This document shows positions 3,084 through 64,000 of a stretch of DNA of 64,000 bases, in pieces (position 1 is the first letter of the stretch; every line of letters begins with the position of its first letter). A model generated the notes under the pieces. The model saw nothing but the letters and a program-made list of their open reading frames with translations, did not search any database and was not told where the DNA came from. The position numbers were made by a program, and so were the translations under genes. Origin of the DNA: Rubricoccus marinus (GTDB lineage Bacteria > Bacteroidota > Rhodothermia > Rhodothermales > Rubricoccaceae); contig NZ_MQWB01000001.1 of NCBI RefSeq assembly GCF_002257665.1, positions 1,403,712 to 1,467,711 on the forward strand. Reading direction: 5' to 3'.

Positions 3084-3111
3084 GGTTCTGCTGCGCTCCT
3101 TACCACCTTTG

Positions 3112-3495
3112 ATGACTTCTTTCACAGTGACGAAGTGGATCCTCGCCGTCGGATCGTGCATGGTGCTCATGTCCTGTACTCGGCCGAACGCGCGGGACCT
3201 CGGCTGCGATGTGGCGCTCGATACAACGTTGGTCGACGGCCCCGTTGAGCACGGCGTTTGGCTGGTAGCCGACTCGCTCTACCTCTTCGGCGGGTTTCGG
3301 CCCTTCAACCCCTCGGTTTGCGTTCCTCTCTGGGCGGCGACGGGGTTGGTCGAAGGATCGTGTGCGCTCGCGGAAGTGCCGGTCCCCTTCGCGGTGCGCC
3401 AGACGGGGAAGGACGACACTCTCCATGTCATCAAGGGTGGCCAGACGTTCGCGTTCCAACTCGACGAGGCGTACTGCAGCGACTCCGAGTGGTAG
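3112..3495 (+). CDS. Cassette-borne putative lipoprotein, unknown function
   Basis: 127 residues. The ATG at 3112 is chosen because it gives a clean export signal: a short polar start, a hydrophobic stretch, then lipobox VLMSC with Cys22. The open frame continues upstream, but that part looks non-coding and contains the cassette boundary. The mature part is cysteine-containing and ends in a polar tail (YCSDSEW). No family recognised. It lies inside the cassette at 3085-3600, 24 bp before the attC-like R'' box, the usual arrangement for a cassette gene. Known: cassette genes are often small exported or membrane proteins of unknown role. Confidence 0.65.
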   Translation: MTSFTVTKWILAVGSCMVLMSCTRPNARDLGCDVALDTTLVDGPVEHGVWLVADSLYLFGGFRPFNPSVCVPLWAATGLVEGSCALAEVPVPFAVRQTGKDDTLHVIKGGQTFAFQLDEAYCSDSEW

Positions 3496-3518
3496 CGAGC
3501 TCTGCCCAACCCCGCGCG

Positions 3519-3600
3519 GCAGAACCTGCCGCTGTAGACTGACCGGGGGCGGCAGCGTTCTTGGGCCATTTAGCACCGGCGCCTACCTTCGCTTCGGGCC
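3519..3600 (+). other. Truncated attC-like site
   Basis: R'' box GCAGAAC, then a left arm CCTGCCGCTG close to CCCGCCGCTG of the attC sites at 21.0 and 21.5 kb. Further similarity follows: CAGCGTTCT, AGCACCGGCGC and TTCGCTTCG appear in the same order as in the site at 21520-21648. The right arm (GCGGTTGAGCGG and GTTNNNN) is not found, so the site is truncated by deletion or decay. Confidence 0.65.
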
Positions 3601-3633
3601 TCGGCGGCATTCTTCGCCGTCGCATTCGGCGCC

Positions 3634-3780
3634 GTGGTGCTATTGGAGATCGGGACTGGTATGGCGATCAAGCCTCAAGGGTGGAGACCTATCGACGATC
3701 GAAAAAAGGAGCCAGGCCACTACTGGTTCATCATCGCGTTTCACACGGCAATGATCACATGGGCTACATGGTCCTTCTAA
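3634..3780 (+). pseudogene. Fragment of a small two-helix membrane protein
   Basis: A frame open from 3574 to the TAA at 3778-3780 encodes two hydrophobic stretches (AAFFAVAFGAVVLLEIG and HYWFIIAFHTAMITWATWSF) separated by a charged loop with RPIDDRKKEPG. There is no ATG before 3661, which lies after the first hydrophobic stretch, so translation would need GTG 3634/3637. The frame starts inside the truncated attC arm. I read it as a decayed second cassette whose 5' end was lost. The sequence at the stop (TTCTAACC) looks like the start of another attC, but no right arm follows. Codon choice is less GC-biased than in the flanking genes. Confidence 0.4.
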
Positions 3781-19394: not shown

Positions 19395-20474
19395 CTAGGC
19401 GGCTTCCCGCGTGGCGAGCTGGCCGCAGGCGGCGTCGATGTCCTGGCCGCGGCTGCGGCGGACGGTCACGCGGACCTCCTCGCGCACGAGCGCGCGAATG
19501 AAGCGGTCCAACTCGGCCTCTGGCGGCGAGGTGAAGCCCGTCCCTTGGACGGGGTTGTACACGATCAGGTTGACCTTGGACGGCGCCCATCGCGTGACGG
19601 CGGCGAGGTTGCGCGCGTCCTCGTCGGTGTCGTTCTGGCCCGCGAAGACGCAGTACTCGTAGGTGACGCGCTCGCCGGTCAGGTTCCAGTAGTGACGGAT
19701 GGCGTCGCGCAAGGCGCCGAGGTCGGTCTTTTCCGAGCGGTTGACGGGCATGATCGCGCTCCTCTGCGCGTCCGTCGGCGCGTGGAGGCTAACGGCGAGG
19801 CGGAAGCCGGGGATGGCGCCAGAAGCCTGCCCGTCCGCCACCTCGCGGATGCGGCGCGCGAGGCCGACGGTGGAAACGGTCACGCGCCGCGGCGCGAGGC
19901 CGAGCCCGTCGCGGATGAGCCCGACGCTTTTGGTGACGGCGCTCATGTTCTGCAGCGGCTCGCCCATGCCCATGTAGACGACGTTGCTGAGGCCGCGGCC
20001 ATACGTCTCGTGCGCGAGCGCGTCCAGGTGCTGCGCTTGGGCGGCGATCTGGCCGGCGGTGAGGTTCTCCTGGAATCCCATGCGGCCGGTCGCGCAAAAC
20101 GTGCAGCCCATCGCGCAGCCGACCTGCGAGGACACGCAGGCCGTGAGGCGGCGGGCGCGGCCGGTCTCCTCGTCTACGTCCGGGATGAGCACGGCCTCCA
20201 CGGCGCGGCCGGAGGGGAGGCGGAGCAGCGTCTTAATGGTCCCGTCGGTCGCCGTCTGGCGGCTCGTCTCTTCCAGCCGCCCGATCTGCGCCTCGGCGCC
20301 GAGCCTCTGGCGCAGCGCCAGAGGCAGGTTCGTCATGGCGTCGAAGGAGCGGGCGCCCTTTTCGTGCATCCACTCGAAGAGCTGCCGCCCCCGGTAGGCC
20401 GGCTCGCCGATCTCCCGCATGAACGCGGTGAGTTCGATCTGGTCGAGGGCGAGGAGGTCTGGGGGCGCTGGCAT
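19395..20474 (-). CDS. rlmN: Dual-specificity 23S rRNA/tRNA adenine-C2 methyltransferase RlmN
   Basis: 359 residues, the usual family length. Radical-SAM cluster motif CAMGCTFC within SSQVGCAMGCTFCATGRMGF, SAM-binding YMGMGEPLQN, and the C-terminal catalytic cysteine in AACGQL. RlmN methylates A2503 of 23S rRNA and A37 of some tRNAs. It lies immediately beside the integron-type array (315 bp from its start codon) and ends adjacent to the WS/DGAT gene. The coding sequence carries several window-wide motif copies, so it is resident. Confidence 0.96.
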   Translation of the reverse strand: MPAPPDLLALDQIELTAFMREIGEPAYRGRQLFEWMHEKGARSFDAMTNLPLALRQRLGAEAQIGRLEETSRQTATDGTIKTLLRLPSGRAVEAVLIPDVDEETGRARRLTACVSSQVGCAMGCTFCATGRMGFQENLTAGQIAAQAQHLDALAHETYGRGLSNVVYMGMGEPLQNMSAVTKSVGLIRDGLGLAPRRVTVSTVGLARRIREVADGQASGAIPGFRLAVSLHAPTDAQRSAIMPVNRSEKTDLGALRDAIRHYWNLTGERVTYEYCVFAGQNDTDEDARNLAAVTRWAPSKVNLIVYNPVQGTGFTSPPEAELDRFIRALVREEVRVTVRRSRGQDIDAACGQLATREAA

Positions 20475-20788
20475 CCCATAAGAACGCCTCTGGCGCCAGA
20501 GGCGGGGTGGATGGGGCGCGGATCGGGTGTGAAATGGCGCCAGAGGCCGCGGCCGAGTGCGGCGTTTCGGCCGCGACGCGAGAGGACGACGCCGGAGCTA
20601 GGGCGGCGTTTGGACAGCGGCCGAGGCGATTCGTGCTTGCGTTCTCGTTTGCGCAGGCGTTCCTTCACATTCCGCTTCACGGATGTTCTGACGCATGAAG
20701 TGCGGAAACTGTCGCTTCATGCCGCCCAGCTTCCGCCTTTTGTCCCGATTCCGGACTTCATCCGGCACTCAGTGCCGCTGAAGTACTA
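20475..20788. other. Gene-poor segment between rlmN and the cassette array
   Basis: 314 bp with no convincing gene. It holds one 18-bp motif palindrome (20486-20503), another motif copy near 20536, an inverted repeat ATGAAG / CTTCAT near 20695-20720, and the hairpin before the first cassette. If an attI site existed it should lie here, but I cannot identify one, and no integrase coding sequence is present. Confidence 0.6.
20755..20784. other. Hairpin abutting the first cassette boundary
   Basis: Two-part stem: ACTTCA pairs with TGAAGT and CGGCACT with AGTGCCG across a one-base loop centre. It ends four bases before GTTAGCC (20789-20795), the start of cassette 1. It could be a recombination site structure or a terminator lacking a T-tract. 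Confidence 0.5.
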
Positions 20789-20812
20789 GTTAGCCGTACT
20801 CTTGCTCGAACC

Positions 20813-21034
20813 GTGAGCGAATCCACTCTCCGCCGAACCGTCCGCATTGTCGCCAGCCTCGCGCTCGCGGCGGGACTCTTCGGAATGCTCTTCTGCTTCC
20901 CGTTTTTGTGGTCGGCAAATATGGAAGACCTCGTCGGCGCAGGCTTCCCTTTCGTGGGCGGCGCAGTCCTCTTCGCTTCCGGCCTCGTCGCGCTGGCGCT
21001 CACCATCGGCAAGAACTCTACGGGCGCTCCGTAG
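20813..21034 (+). CDS. Cassette 1: small two-helix membrane protein
   Basis: 73 residues from GTG 20813. Two membrane helices (about 10-32 and 42-64) separated by a short loop with WSANMEDLVGAG. No family recognised. It starts 18 bases after the cassette boundary and ends 11 bases before the attC R'' box, the compact spacing typical of cassettes. No good ribosome-binding site is visible. Confidence 0.65.
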   Translation: MSESTLRRTVRIVASLALAAGLFGMLFCFPFLWSANMEDLVGAGFPFVGGAVLFASGLVALALTIGKNSTGAP

Positions 21035-21045
21035 GCTGGGAGTAC

Positions 21046-21175
21046 GGCTAACCCGCCGCTGCAAGCCGACCCTAGGCGCTGGCGCTCTCAGTCCCAGTGG
21101 GGCACCAGCGCTTCCGTAGCTTCGATTCACCGCCGCGCCCTCAACCTAGGGCGGTTGAGCGGCCCTCTGTTAGGC
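21046..21175 (+). other. attC site 1
   Basis: 130 bp. R'' GGCTAAC, left arm GCCGCTGCAAGC, right arm GCGGTTGAGCGGC, R' GTTAGGC (21169-21175). The arms pair as GCCGCT-CAA with one unpaired G in the left arm, the extrahelical base integrases use to choose the recombined strand. Confidence 0.85.
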
Positions 21176-21210
21176 CGCACTACTAAGCAGAACAACCCTC
21201 AATCCGTTCA

Positions 21211-21510
21211 ATGGACGCGCAGACTCAAAAGTGGGGGCGCGGCTGCTTGGGCCTCGGCTTTGGAACCGTCCTGGTCGGCTCCGTTCTATCGAGCTTCCAT
21301 CCAGCCGCACTACCTCTGATCGCCAGCTTTGCGCTTGGCTTCGCAATCTGGAAGATGCTAGACACGCGGCTCGCTTGGCCGACCGCGATTGCCGGAGGCT
21401 TCCAACTCGTCGAGCGGGACAAGAACCCTTCCAGCTACTGGCTAAGTGTCTCAATTGTGAGCTTCATGTTTCTGATCGCGCTCTCGCTCGCTGTTTACTC
21501 CTTCTTGTAA
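21211..21510 (+). CDS. Cassette 2: small membrane protein
   Basis: 99 residues from ATG 21211. Three hydrophobic segments (about 13-30, 32-50 and 77-97); N-terminus polar (MDAQTQKWGRG). No family recognised. It sits 36 bases after the cassette boundary GTTAGGC and ends 9 bases before the attC 2 R'' box. Its base composition is less GC-rich than the resident genes. Confidence 0.65.
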   Translation: MDAQTQKWGRGCLGLGFGTVLVGSVLSSFHPAALPLIASFALGFAIWKMLDTRLAWPTAIAGGFQLVERDKNPSSYWLSVSIVSFMFLIALSLAVYSFL

Positions 21511-21519
21511 CTCCGTGCG

Positions 21520-21648
21520 GTCTAACCCGCCGCTGCAAGCCGACGATGGGCTCCAGCGTTCTCGGCTCGTCCAAGCACCGGCGCTACTTTCGCTTCGATC
21601 CGCTCTCGTGCCCTCAGCCCTTCGCGGTTGAGCGGCCATCTGTTATGC
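21520..21648 (+). other. attC site 2
   Basis: 129 bp. R'' GTCTAAC, left arm GCCGCTGCAAGC, right arm GCGGTTGAGCGGCC, R' GTTATGC (21642-21648). Same arms and unpaired G as attC 1, with an internal segment that matches the truncated site at 3519. Confidence 0.85.
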
Positions 21649-21739
21649 CGCCCTCGAACCGTAGCGGTCGGCTCTGTGACCAGCGGCTGACAGAGCGGAG
21701 TGCGATCTTGGGATCTCTACCCACCCCTCCTCTCTGGTC

Positions 21740-22306
21740 ATGGAAACTGCACCTCGCCGCGTCGTCGTCTCGGAATTCGTCTCGCTCGACGGCGTGATGG
21801 AAAACCCGTCCTGGACCGCGCCCTACTGGAACGATGAGATCGCCACGTTCAAAGGAGAGGAGGACTCCACCGCCGACTCCCTCCTCCTCGGGCGCGTGAC
21901 GTACGAGATGTTCTCAGCTGTCTGGCCCACGTCCGAGGACCCCGGTGCCCCACGCATCAACTCGCTCCACAAGCACGTCGCCTCGACGACATTGACCCAG
22001 GACGACCTCGACCGGGTCGGCTGGAACGCGACGCTGCTCGAAGGCGATGTCGCAGAGGCCGTACGCACGTTGAAGCAGGAGCCGGGCGGGGACCTCCTCG
22101 TGTGGGGGAGCGCCGAGTTGGCCCGGACACTGATCGCTCACGACCTCGTGGACGAGTACCGGCTGATAGTGTACCCCGTTGTGCTCGGGGGCGGGAAGCG
22201 TTTGTTCGGAACTGAGGCCGCGACGCTGGACCTCGTTGAGACGCGGCCGTTCAAGTCCGGTGCGACCGGGCTGGTGTACCGGCCCGCTTCTCAGGGGGCG
22301 GTATAA
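21740..22306 (+). CDS. Cassette 3, gene 1: dihydrofolate reductase-family (RibD_C) protein
   Basis: 188 residues from ATG 21740. N-terminal RRVVVSEFVSLDGVMENP and later LLLGRVTYEMF, WGSAELARTL and YPVVLGGGKRLF are hallmarks of the RibD C-terminal/DHFR-like reductase family (NADPH-dependent). Such genes are frequent in integron cassettes. The substrate cannot be assigned. It is followed 12 bp later by a second gene within the same cassette, an uncommon two-gene arrangement. Confidence 0.88.
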   Translation: METAPRRVVVSEFVSLDGVMENPSWTAPYWNDEIATFKGEEDSTADSLLLGRVTYEMFSAVWPTSEDPGAPRINSLHKHVASTTLTQDDLDRVGWNATLLEGDVAEAVRTLKQEPGGDLLVWGSAELARTLIAHDLVDEYRLIVYPVVLGGGKRLFGTEAATLDLVETRPFKSGATGLVYRPASQGAV

Positions 22307-22342
22307 TCGCGCACTGCTATGCCGGCTTACGAATCCCGATCT

Positions 22343-23047
22343 ATGATCCGCTCCCTCCTCCTAGGTCTGGGTCTGAGCCTCTTAGCCGGGTGTGGCGGAC
22401 CTGCCAGGGTGGAGCAGGCCGGACAAGGCGGGGGCGCTGTCAGGGCCAGCCTTGGTCAGGTCGACCCCAGCGCGCGCTATCTGTTCTACCTGCACGCCAA
22501 GGTCATCGAGGAAGAAGGGCTACCCGCCATCAGCCCCGAGCACGGCGAGTATCAATACGGGGCGATCTTGGACCGCCTCGCTCGCTTCGGATTCGTCGTC
22601 GTCAGCGAAGTCCGGCCCAAAGACGCCCCTTCCGGGTTCTACGCCCAACGGATCGCCGCACAGGTCGACTCCCTTCTCGGCGCGGGTGTGCCCCCGGAGC
22701 ACGTCACGGTCGTCGGAGCCTCGAAGGGGGCGTACATCGCGGCGCTCGTGTCGCATCGGGTCTCGGTCCCGAGCGTGCGCTACGTCCTCCTCTCGATGTG
22801 CGACGCCGAGACCGTGGCGTACATGATCGAGCAGGGGACCGACCTTCATGGCGATGTGCTTGCACTCCGGGACGCAGCCGACACGCCGGACCTCGTGGGC
22901 TCGTGCGAGGACTTGTTCACGTTCTCCCGCGAGATCGGGCGGCACGACGAGTTCGTGGTCGACGTAGGGACCGGACACGGCATCCTCTACCAGCCCCTGG
23001 ATGCGTGGGTCTTCCCTACGGTACGGTGGGCACAGGAGCCAGAGTGA
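22343..23047 (+). CDS. Cassette 3, gene 2: alpha/beta-hydrolase-like lipoprotein
   Basis: 234 residues from ATG 22343, chosen because it gives a lipoprotein signal (SLLAGC, Cys17); an in-frame ATG at 22319 adds eight residues. The body looks like an alpha/beta hydrolase: strand then VVGASKGAYIAAL with a nucleophile elbow G-x-S-x-G, and a late GTGHGILY supplying the likely catalytic His. Probably a surface- or periplasm-anchored esterase or lipase-like enzyme. It ends 26 bases before the attC 3 R'' box. Confidence 0.75.
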   Translation: MIRSLLLGLGLSLLAGCGGPARVEQAGQGGGAVRASLGQVDPSARYLFYLHAKVIEEEGLPAISPEHGEYQYGAILDRLARFGFVVVSEVRPKDAPSGFYAQRIAAQVDSLLGAGVPPEHVTVVGASKGAYIAALVSHRVSVPSVRYVLLSMCDAETVAYMIEQGTDLHGDVLALRDAADTPDLVGSCEDLFTFSREIGRHDEFVVDVGTGHGILYQPLDAWVFPTVRWAQEPE

Positions 23048-23073
23048 AGGGGTGCTCCACATGTAGGAGCGAC

Positions 23074-23202
23074 GCATAACTCACCGCTGCAGGCCGACCC
23101 CAAGCGTCAGCGTTCTCGGTTCCAACGGACCTCGGCGTATCCTGCGCTCCGATCCACCCGCCAGCCCTCAGCTTTGGGCGGCTGAGCGGTCACCTGTTCT
23201 AC
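23074..23202 (+). other. attC site 3
   Basis: 129 bp. R'' GCATAAC, left arm ACCGCTGCAG, right arm CTGAGCGGT, R' GTTCTAC (23196-23202). Both arms changed together relative to attC 1 and 2 (G-to-A paired with C-to-T, and CAA/TTG to CAG/CTG), so pairing and the unpaired G are kept. Confidence 0.85.
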
Positions 23203-23215
23203 CGCATCCCAACAA

Positions 23216-23569
23216 ATGGAGCCAAACGCCCAAAGGCAGGCACGGTCTGCTCCTCCGTGCTTCGGCCTCATCAGCACCATCTGGGGTGTATTCGCGGCAG
23301 TAGTGATCGGTACGCTGGCTGGCCGAAGCGAGATCGTCGCGCTCATTGTCATGGTGGGCGTTCCGTGGAGCGTCTACGCGATTGACAAAGTGCGCAAATG
23401 CGAAGGGCGCTTCCCTGACCGCGTTTACGACCGGCTCGACGAACCGGGGCTTTACTGGTTCGCTCGGGCGTCTGCCGTCTGGGCCGCAATCATGTTGCTG
23501 TGGGGTGTTGTAATCGTCGTGGATATGCTCTTCAATGATGGGGGGATGACTGGCGTCCAGATGCGGTAG
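23216..23569 (+). CDS. Cassette 4: small membrane protein
   Basis: 117 residues from ATG 23216. Three hydrophobic stretches (about 17-35, 40-56 and 83-105) with a charged loop KVRKCEGRFPDRVYDRLDEPG. No family recognised. Its stop codon TAG overlaps the R'' box GTAGAAC of the terminal attC, the tightest gene-attC spacing in the array. Confidence 0.65.
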   Translation: MEPNAQRQARSAPPCFGLISTIWGVFAAVVIGTLAGRSEIVALIVMVGVPWSVYAIDKVRKCEGRFPDRVYDRLDEPGLYWFARASAVWAAIMLLWGVVIVVDMLFNDGGMTGVQMR

Positions 23570-23625
23570 AACCCACTGCTGCAGGCCTCCCGCGGACGGA
23601 GTCCGCACTCGGCCTAGCTCCATAG
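23566..23625 (+). other. Terminal truncated attC
   Basis: R'' GTAGAAC (exact complement of cassette 4's start GTTCTAC) and left arm CACTGCTGCAGGCC. The partner right arm (expected CTGAGCAGTG) and a GTTNNNN box are not found before resident motif DNA resumes at 23632, so the right half is lost. Confidence 0.65.
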
Positions 23626-63161: not shown

Positions 63162-63437
63162 CGCCAGAGGCCTCTGGCGTGTGCGCCTCCTTCGCGGTGT
63201 GACAGACGGGCGCCGCGTCGGGCCTCTGGCGCGGCTTGTTCTATCCGGCGGGAGGCGGGACAAACCCCGGTCTCCTGCGTGGCGGATTACTGGGCGCGAA
63301 TAGAGAAGTATTATCTGGCACGCTATGCCGGGTTTATCCGGCGAGGCGCCTGCTAACACTTGTTATGCTGCCTCGCCCCTGCGTGACTTGAACACCTACA
63401 CGTCGTGCCGATACTATCAGGCCCGAACCGAAAGAAG
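63162..63437. other. Intergenic, transition from resident to acquired-looking DNA
   Basis: 276 bp. Motif copies occur at 63163-63180 and near 63222; none afterwards to the window end. Near 63348-63379 there is an inverted arrangement CGAGGC...GCTAAC-ACTT-GTTATGC...GCCTCG. GTTATGC at 63362-63368 has cassette-boundary form, but no attC is visible in the window. Confidence 0.5.
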
Positions 63438-64000
63438 ATGCCTCACGGAATCCAGAGCGCAAAAGAGATTAGAGAGGACGTTCTTCACCGACTCCGCAGC
63501 GGTGCTGACAGCGTAATCCGTATGCCGGGCCGCGCCCTCAACTACAGAGTCAATGATCTCCATGTCGTCAACCTTCGGGCTGCTAGCCAGAAGTCGGCGG
63601 ACAAGTACTGGTTCGATGTGACACCTGAGTTTTACGAGGCTCCGACCGTTGACTTCTTCGTCTACGCCTGCGGGTCCGCTGCCGCTGCATACATCTTTCC
63701 GGTTCAGGACTTCGCCCGAATGATTGACGGAGCTAGCCTCGGAGGTCAAAAGCAGGTGCCGAACTTCACGCTTTACGTGGACACCCACGAGTTCGAGCCT
63801 GCAGGTAGGGCGCGGTCCACGCACCGCGTTAGTGAGTTCTACAACCGTTGGGAGCCTCTCTTTGGCAGCGACTCAGACCCGGACGCTCCCGCTTCCGAGC
63901 CCAGCGACTATTCGCTGCCTGATATTGGAGGTCGCGTCGCGGAGCCTCCTCCGCGCGCCCTTTCTGTAACTGAGCGCATCATCCGGGACACTGCGCTGGC
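63438..64000 (+). CDS. Putative HNH-type nuclease, cut by the window end
   Basis: At least 187 residues from ATG 63438, running off the edge with no stop. AAAGAAG sits just before the ATG. N-terminal part (PHGIQSAKEIREDVLHRLRS) is followed by strands such as DKYWFDVTPEFY and DFFVYACG, a Pro/Asp-rich linker, then SVTERIIRDTALA, which in many HNH endonucleases sits directly before the zinc/HNH core. That core would lie outside, so the nuclease call is inference. Less GC-rich and free of the window-wide motif, unlike ppk beside it. Confidence 0.4.
   Translation, partial: MPHGIQSAKEIREDVLHRLRSGADSVIRMPGRALNYRVNDLHVVNLRAASQKSADKYWFDVTPEFYEAPTVDFFVYACGSAAAAYIFPVQDFARMIDGASLGGQKQVPNFTLYVDTHEFEPAGRARSTHRVSEFYNRWEPLFGSDSDPDAPASEPSDYSLPDIGGRVAEPPPRALSVTERIIRDTAL

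Follow-up and report, generated by a model that had tools for sequence, protein, structure and literature searches.

An integron cassette array without a local integrase gene is headed by a copy of the resident attI in Rubricoccus marinus

How does an array of integron cassettes come to stand at a place in a genome where there is no integrase gene? The question is raised by a locus of Rubricoccus marinus (phylum Rhodothermota, family Rubricoccaceae; genome of 4,430,441 bases in 15 contigs) in a stretch of 64,000 nucleotides, here called the window (C1:1403712-1467711, forward strand). An initial annotation of the sequence had described positions 20789-23625 as four cassettes without a visible integrase gene (intI). 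We find that the array is of a known integron kind and has an unusual architecture, in that it is headed by a near-identical copy of the attI region of an integron found elsewhere in the same genome. The reading that we prefer, at a probability of roughly 0.68, is that of a satellite integron platform, which is a copy of the attI region with four cassettes but without intI that would be served in trans by the integrase, IntI.

The array consists of four integron cassettes; three attC sites are canonical and the terminal one is decayed. The cassettes are bounded at G|TT, and each start is complementary to the R'' box of its own cassette, as had been claimed for all four: 12, 11, 9 and 12 of 12 positions pair in cassettes 1-4. 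Pairing is weakest in cassette 3, where the 7-nt box GTTATGC/GCATAAC is exact. Three complementary pairs were observed, compared with a mean of 0.06 per 3 kb in dinucleotide shuffles (n = 300, maximum 1). The attC arms, which had been described as covarying around an unpaired G, form a 20-bp stem with three extrahelical bases including a G in L''. In an alignment of 14 attC sites from the same genome, 97.1% of the stem cells were paired, whereas sliding the partner as a control lowered this to 35-45%, and both sides had changed at nine stem pairs. The R''/L''...L'/R' fold with its extrahelical bases is thus structurally conserved. In folding energy, the attC bottom strands did not surpass shuffles (z -0.7 to -0.9); it is covariation that carries the structural evidence.

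Because our first covariance model (R1) included the window's own sites, we built a second (R2) from 26 sites in other genomes only; these had themselves been located by R1, so that R2 is independent of the letters of the window and not of the definition of the family. Over the 64-kb window, R2 found three full sites at 112-135 bits, and its sole further match with E < 0.1 was a lone site at 3519 (38 bits). R1 gave zero matches on 15 genomes of one integrase-free family. The sites therefore came through the covariance search on which the annotation had staked its claim.

What the annotation overlooked is the head of the array. The feature begins upstream of 20789, with an attI on the forward strand at 20673-20789 and a crossover point between G20789 and T20790. 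Window positions 20673-20794 are identical at 118 of 122 positions (97%) to the stretch that separates the chromosomal intI from its first cassette (C1:1900738), with the homology ending just beyond the crossover. A search of the whole genome recovered five copies of this 120-bp sequence with 94-97% identity: in the window (W) and at C1:165124 (A), C1:241353 (B), C1:1900738 (I) and C1:2152572 (C). All five stop at the same G|TT and are then followed by their own, differing cassettes with attC, and intI adjoins only copy I. Beyond 116-131 bp upstream, copy I is unlike all the others; the similarity continues for about another 140 bp between W and A and for about another 130 bp between B and C. 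These limits indicate that the shared unit runs from the intI start to the first cassette. Up to 3 kb upstream of each satellite, we detected no convincing remnant of intI. The array therefore has an attI, by position and homology, and lacks the adjacent intI of a complete integron; with three attC sites and no neighbouring intI it falls under the definition of a CALIN, a cluster of attC sites lacking an integron integrase (IntegronFinder, PMC9024848). Its place on a duplicated attI of an integrase-bearing integron sets it apart from both a plain CALIN and a random off-target insertion.

In an off-target insertion, IntI would have placed the cassettes at attG-type secondary sites rather than at a true attI. 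Such events are known for IntI1 (cited in PMC12901181 and PMC12444791) and resemble our array in that cassettes lie outside an integron and IntI would be needed in trans. Off-target insertion would also suit a lone cassette-like unit at 3085-3645 of the window, with start/R'' complementarity of 11/12, an attC at 3519-3645 (31-38 bits in two models) and a head without attI motif; this unit is perhaps an off-target insertion. attG sites, however, are not copies of attI, whereas the head of the window array is a 97% copy of a 120-bp attI found five times in the genome, which independent attG events would not share. For the window array this explanation is largely refuted, and we hold it to be the least probable of those considered.

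Alternatively, the 120-bp sequence could be an unrelated dispersed repeat or a structured RNA element that became a cassette hot spot by chance. It does fold strongly as single-stranded DNA (20673-20795; z = -4.0 relative to shuffles), with two hairpins of which the second lies just before the crossover. Against this, all five copies end at a cassette junction, none occurs without cassettes, one lies between intI and the first cassette, and the final 15 bp look like the heads of other integrons of the I clade. Rfam gave no match over the array region. A chance hot spot is accordingly very improbable. Elsewhere in the family, a search for the attI DNA yielded no convincing match, with one match of 21 bp in genome G003.

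The phrase "without a visible integrase" holds locally, within 3 kb upstream of the array, and fails for the genome as a whole. R. marinus carries two intact IntI genes, at C1:1899702-1900709 (minus strand; L010) and C10:18410-19426 (plus strand; L009), that score 407 and 432 bits with TIGR02249 (cut-off 265). The chromosomal gene is the nearer to the array, at a distance of about 472 kb on the same contig. In both proteins the box I and box II residues and the IntI-specific insert region align, and the best solved relative of the chromosomal enzyme is 2a3v (IntI4), with an alignment that is nearly end to end. In a tree of relatives, each of the two has a clade of its own (support 0.86 and 1.0), and both clades are present together in R. 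marinus and in genomes G005 and G008 of the same family. In the order, 45 of 114 genomes encode IntI at E ≤ 1e-30. In the draft genome report for R. marinus SG-29T (PMC5609423), two genes were assigned by RAST to the "integrons" subsystem, and nothing further is said of them.

The head of the C10 integron has a second copy as well. The segment that begins near the intI start and extends to the junction (-155 to +9) recurs at C1:234744-234904 (about 74% identity, E = 5e-27), where it lacks intI and heads the single-cassette array X3; both heads contain a promoter-like pair, TTGAC-N17-TAnnnT. The C10 IntI also gave a weak tblastn match upstream of X3 (E = 0.004), which we do not take for an integrase remnant, because it falls on the homology of the attI-region DNA and arises from translation of the over-long 5' end of the ORF. 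Two further arrays, X1 (head inside the window, at 63362) and X2, have a related 36-bp head in common, and the site at C1:1685833 (X5) shares the last 11 bp only. X1 itself runs from window positions 63280-64000 onward to C1:1468880 (L070 3074-4881); its P-like attI head ends at 63362, its first cassette has a 291-aa ORF, and two attC lie beyond the window (134 and 66 bits). The genome thus holds at least five I-type platforms and two platforms with a P-type attI, the type of the C10 integron, which suggests a distributed integron with two integrases and many docking sites.

We then considered other genomes. All 21 genomes tested, picked for the presence of IntI or for close kinship, contain attC matches, and many of their arrays lack a neighbouring intI, in part through contig breaks. 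With junctions fixed by R'' complementarity, intI-less heads often share a crossover motif, C.AA.TACT.|GTT, and a TTAT box near -50 with intI-adjacent heads, and at the crossover the other satellite heads have scores of the kind seen for true attI (median background fraction 0.013). Genome G042, from another family, has two intI-less arrays with an 85% identical 67-bp head that is related to its intI-adjacent head. A second class of heads resembles an attC from which the hairpin has been cleanly deleted, that is, ...ATAAC/ATAAT, a few bases and |GTT (L073, L088, L094, L099, L121). Salinibacter ruber belongs to the same phylum as R. marinus under current taxonomy, and a complete integron is already known in S. 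ruber M1. The independent model, IntI in the same genome and cassette arrays in relatives together bear out the claim that the array is a product of integron recombination in a Rhodothermota genome.

In the relatives compared, the gene order and the sites are not conserved as ordinary repeats. The 5' flank of the array, outside it, is occupied by rlmN (19395-20474, minus strand), which has homologues in eight relatives with the same downstream neighbour; in five relatives the upstream side of rlmN has no attC, while the downstream neighbour is retained. One cassette recurs in arrays elsewhere: the RibD_C cassette has homologues in a cassette array of G005, a different genus (60% identical; L086 7545-6982), and in another array (36%; L085). 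The other four ORFs had no clear homologue among the relatives' loci compared. The nearest neighbour of an attC lay in the same array in 5 of 24 cases, a mixing among arrays that fits a common cassette pool, and clustering within arrays by mean distance was borderline (p = 0.054).

Because only one of the five attI copies adjoins intI, one integrase probably serves several arrays remotely, and trans service of the satellites by IntI is likely. With no intI nearby, the enzyme would have to be supplied by either the chromosomal or the C10 gene. The chromosomal IntI, whose own attI is 97% identical to that of the window, is the likeliest candidate and the C10 IntI the alternative. IntI made elsewhere in the cell would bind two substrates, the satellite attI in double-stranded form and the bottom strand of attC in its folded form, and would insert the cassette at the G|TT of attI. 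The same enzyme could excise cassettes by attC x attC recombination of folded hairpins, and satellites may still be active in this way. The attI copies could have arisen by duplication of whole platforms and subsequent loss of intI, or by copying of the attI module alone.

The main rival, which we regard as unlikely, takes the satellites for degraded integrons: whole-platform duplicates that lost intI by deletion, leaving attI and cassettes as functionless leftovers. Decay is indeed visible. The terminal attC of the window array (about 23561-23625, forward strand) consists of a short stem, GCTgCAGGCC/GGCCTAGC, without the GTT of R', and neither R1 nor R2 detects it. In every one of the five I-type arrays the final attC is truncated or decayed, often beside the iterated palindrome described below (23561-23625; L010 13245-13310; ends of L017, L018 and L019). 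Within cassette 3, at about 22296-22316 on the forward strand, an R''-like GGGCGGTATAAT followed at once by a degenerate GCTATGC can be read from its letters as a scar, a putative remnant of an attC with its hairpin deleted. Similar scars head arrays in G005, G006, G008 and on R. marinus contig C14. The 3' end of array W is 85% identical to that of array C, and this common end, with the extra 5' flanks of W/A and B/C, suggests that whole platforms may have been duplicated. A history of mere degradation is less easily reconciled with the lack of convincing intI remnants in the 3 kb upstream of the satellites, with an attI kept at 94-97% although the flanks have diverged or differ, and with homology that ends near the intI start in both the I and the P families; these three points remain compatible with loss of intI followed by trans service.

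Several observations weigh against a satellite platform served in trans. The decayed terminal attC of five arrays and the scar in cassette 3 are traits of ageing arrays, the crossover motif is by itself a modest discriminator, and a consensus search at the head of the window array found no sigma-70-like promoter. The reading is based on a single strain. In the chromosomal IntI, moreover, the box I Glu (R-x-x-E), three residues past the box I Arg, is replaced by Gly; other IntI have Glu, among them those of the clade that occurs alongside it in three genomes. A suspicion that this inactivates the enzyme was set aside because five members of one clade, from five genomes and two families (L010 9700-10713; L041-L044), share the Gly.

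A broader proposal, to which we would give slightly less than even odds, is that the attI modules dispersed through the genome were copied without an integrase gene, that each of the two IntI lineages works on several of them in trans, and that every copy grows an array of its own. Under this proposal it is the docking site that multiplies, and many CALINs of the phylum would be active outposts and not ruins.

In public genomes, complete integrons and CALINs occur in roughly equal numbers, and CALINs are usually interpreted as degraded integrons (PMC9024848). The window array resembles CALINs in having at least two attC and no adjacent intI, and differs in that a copy of attI from the resident integron stands at its head and the genome has intact intI. 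It shares attI, cassettes and attC with sedentary chromosomal integrons, of which the intI-adjacent copy at C1:1900738 is an ordinary case, but it lacks a local intI, and R. marinus has several dispersed attI per intI. Extra-locus CALINs of Xanthomonas are likewise intI-less arrays at several loci beside a resident integron; the accessible part of that report (PMC12444791) mentions no attI copies at those loci and accepts mobilisation of CALINs in trans as possible. Extra attI copies are known inside class 1 and class 2 arrays (PMC12901181), where, in Delta-attI-type cassettes, a duplicate of attI has likewise left its original position. In those cassettes all or part of attI stands in for attC within the same array, whereas in R. 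marinus full-length attI heads arrays that are hundreds of kb apart. In the open-access literature we came across no description of multiple attI copies that each head a separate intI-less array.

With five near-identical attI, four of them heading intI-less arrays, whether CALINs can be active and served in trans becomes directly testable, as does the question of whether attI duplicates as a module. The independently located junctions also provide a set of attI for a phylum in which we found no mapped attI in the open-access literature; outside class 1, attI is poorly described and is ignored by the standard search tool.

All cassettes of the window array are on the forward strand, and the annotation needs three amendments: a start at 20673, a cassette 3 with two ORFs and a putative attC remnant, and a decayed terminal site. 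Cassette 1 (20790-21169; attC 21046-21175, R2 111.9 bits) encodes a membrane-like protein of 73 aa (20813-21034) that matches DUF6223 below the Pfam cut-off. Cassette 2 (21170-21642; attC 21520-21648, 134.8 bits) has a 99-aa ORF (21211-21510) without Pfam or NCBIfam match. Cassette 3 (21643-23196; attC 23074-23202, 128.5 bits), probably two fused cassettes, encodes a RibD_C domain (21740-22306; PF01872, 88 bits) and a second protein of no family (22319-23047). Cassette 4 (23197-23625) has a 117-aa ORF of no family (23216-23569). The window as a whole also contains a highly iterated motif: CCTCTGGCG, a 9-mer, is present 113 times in the 64 kb and its complement 118 times, compared with about one expected from base composition, often as the palindrome GCCTCTGGCGCCAGAGGC (19 copies) and also in attC loops and at array ends.
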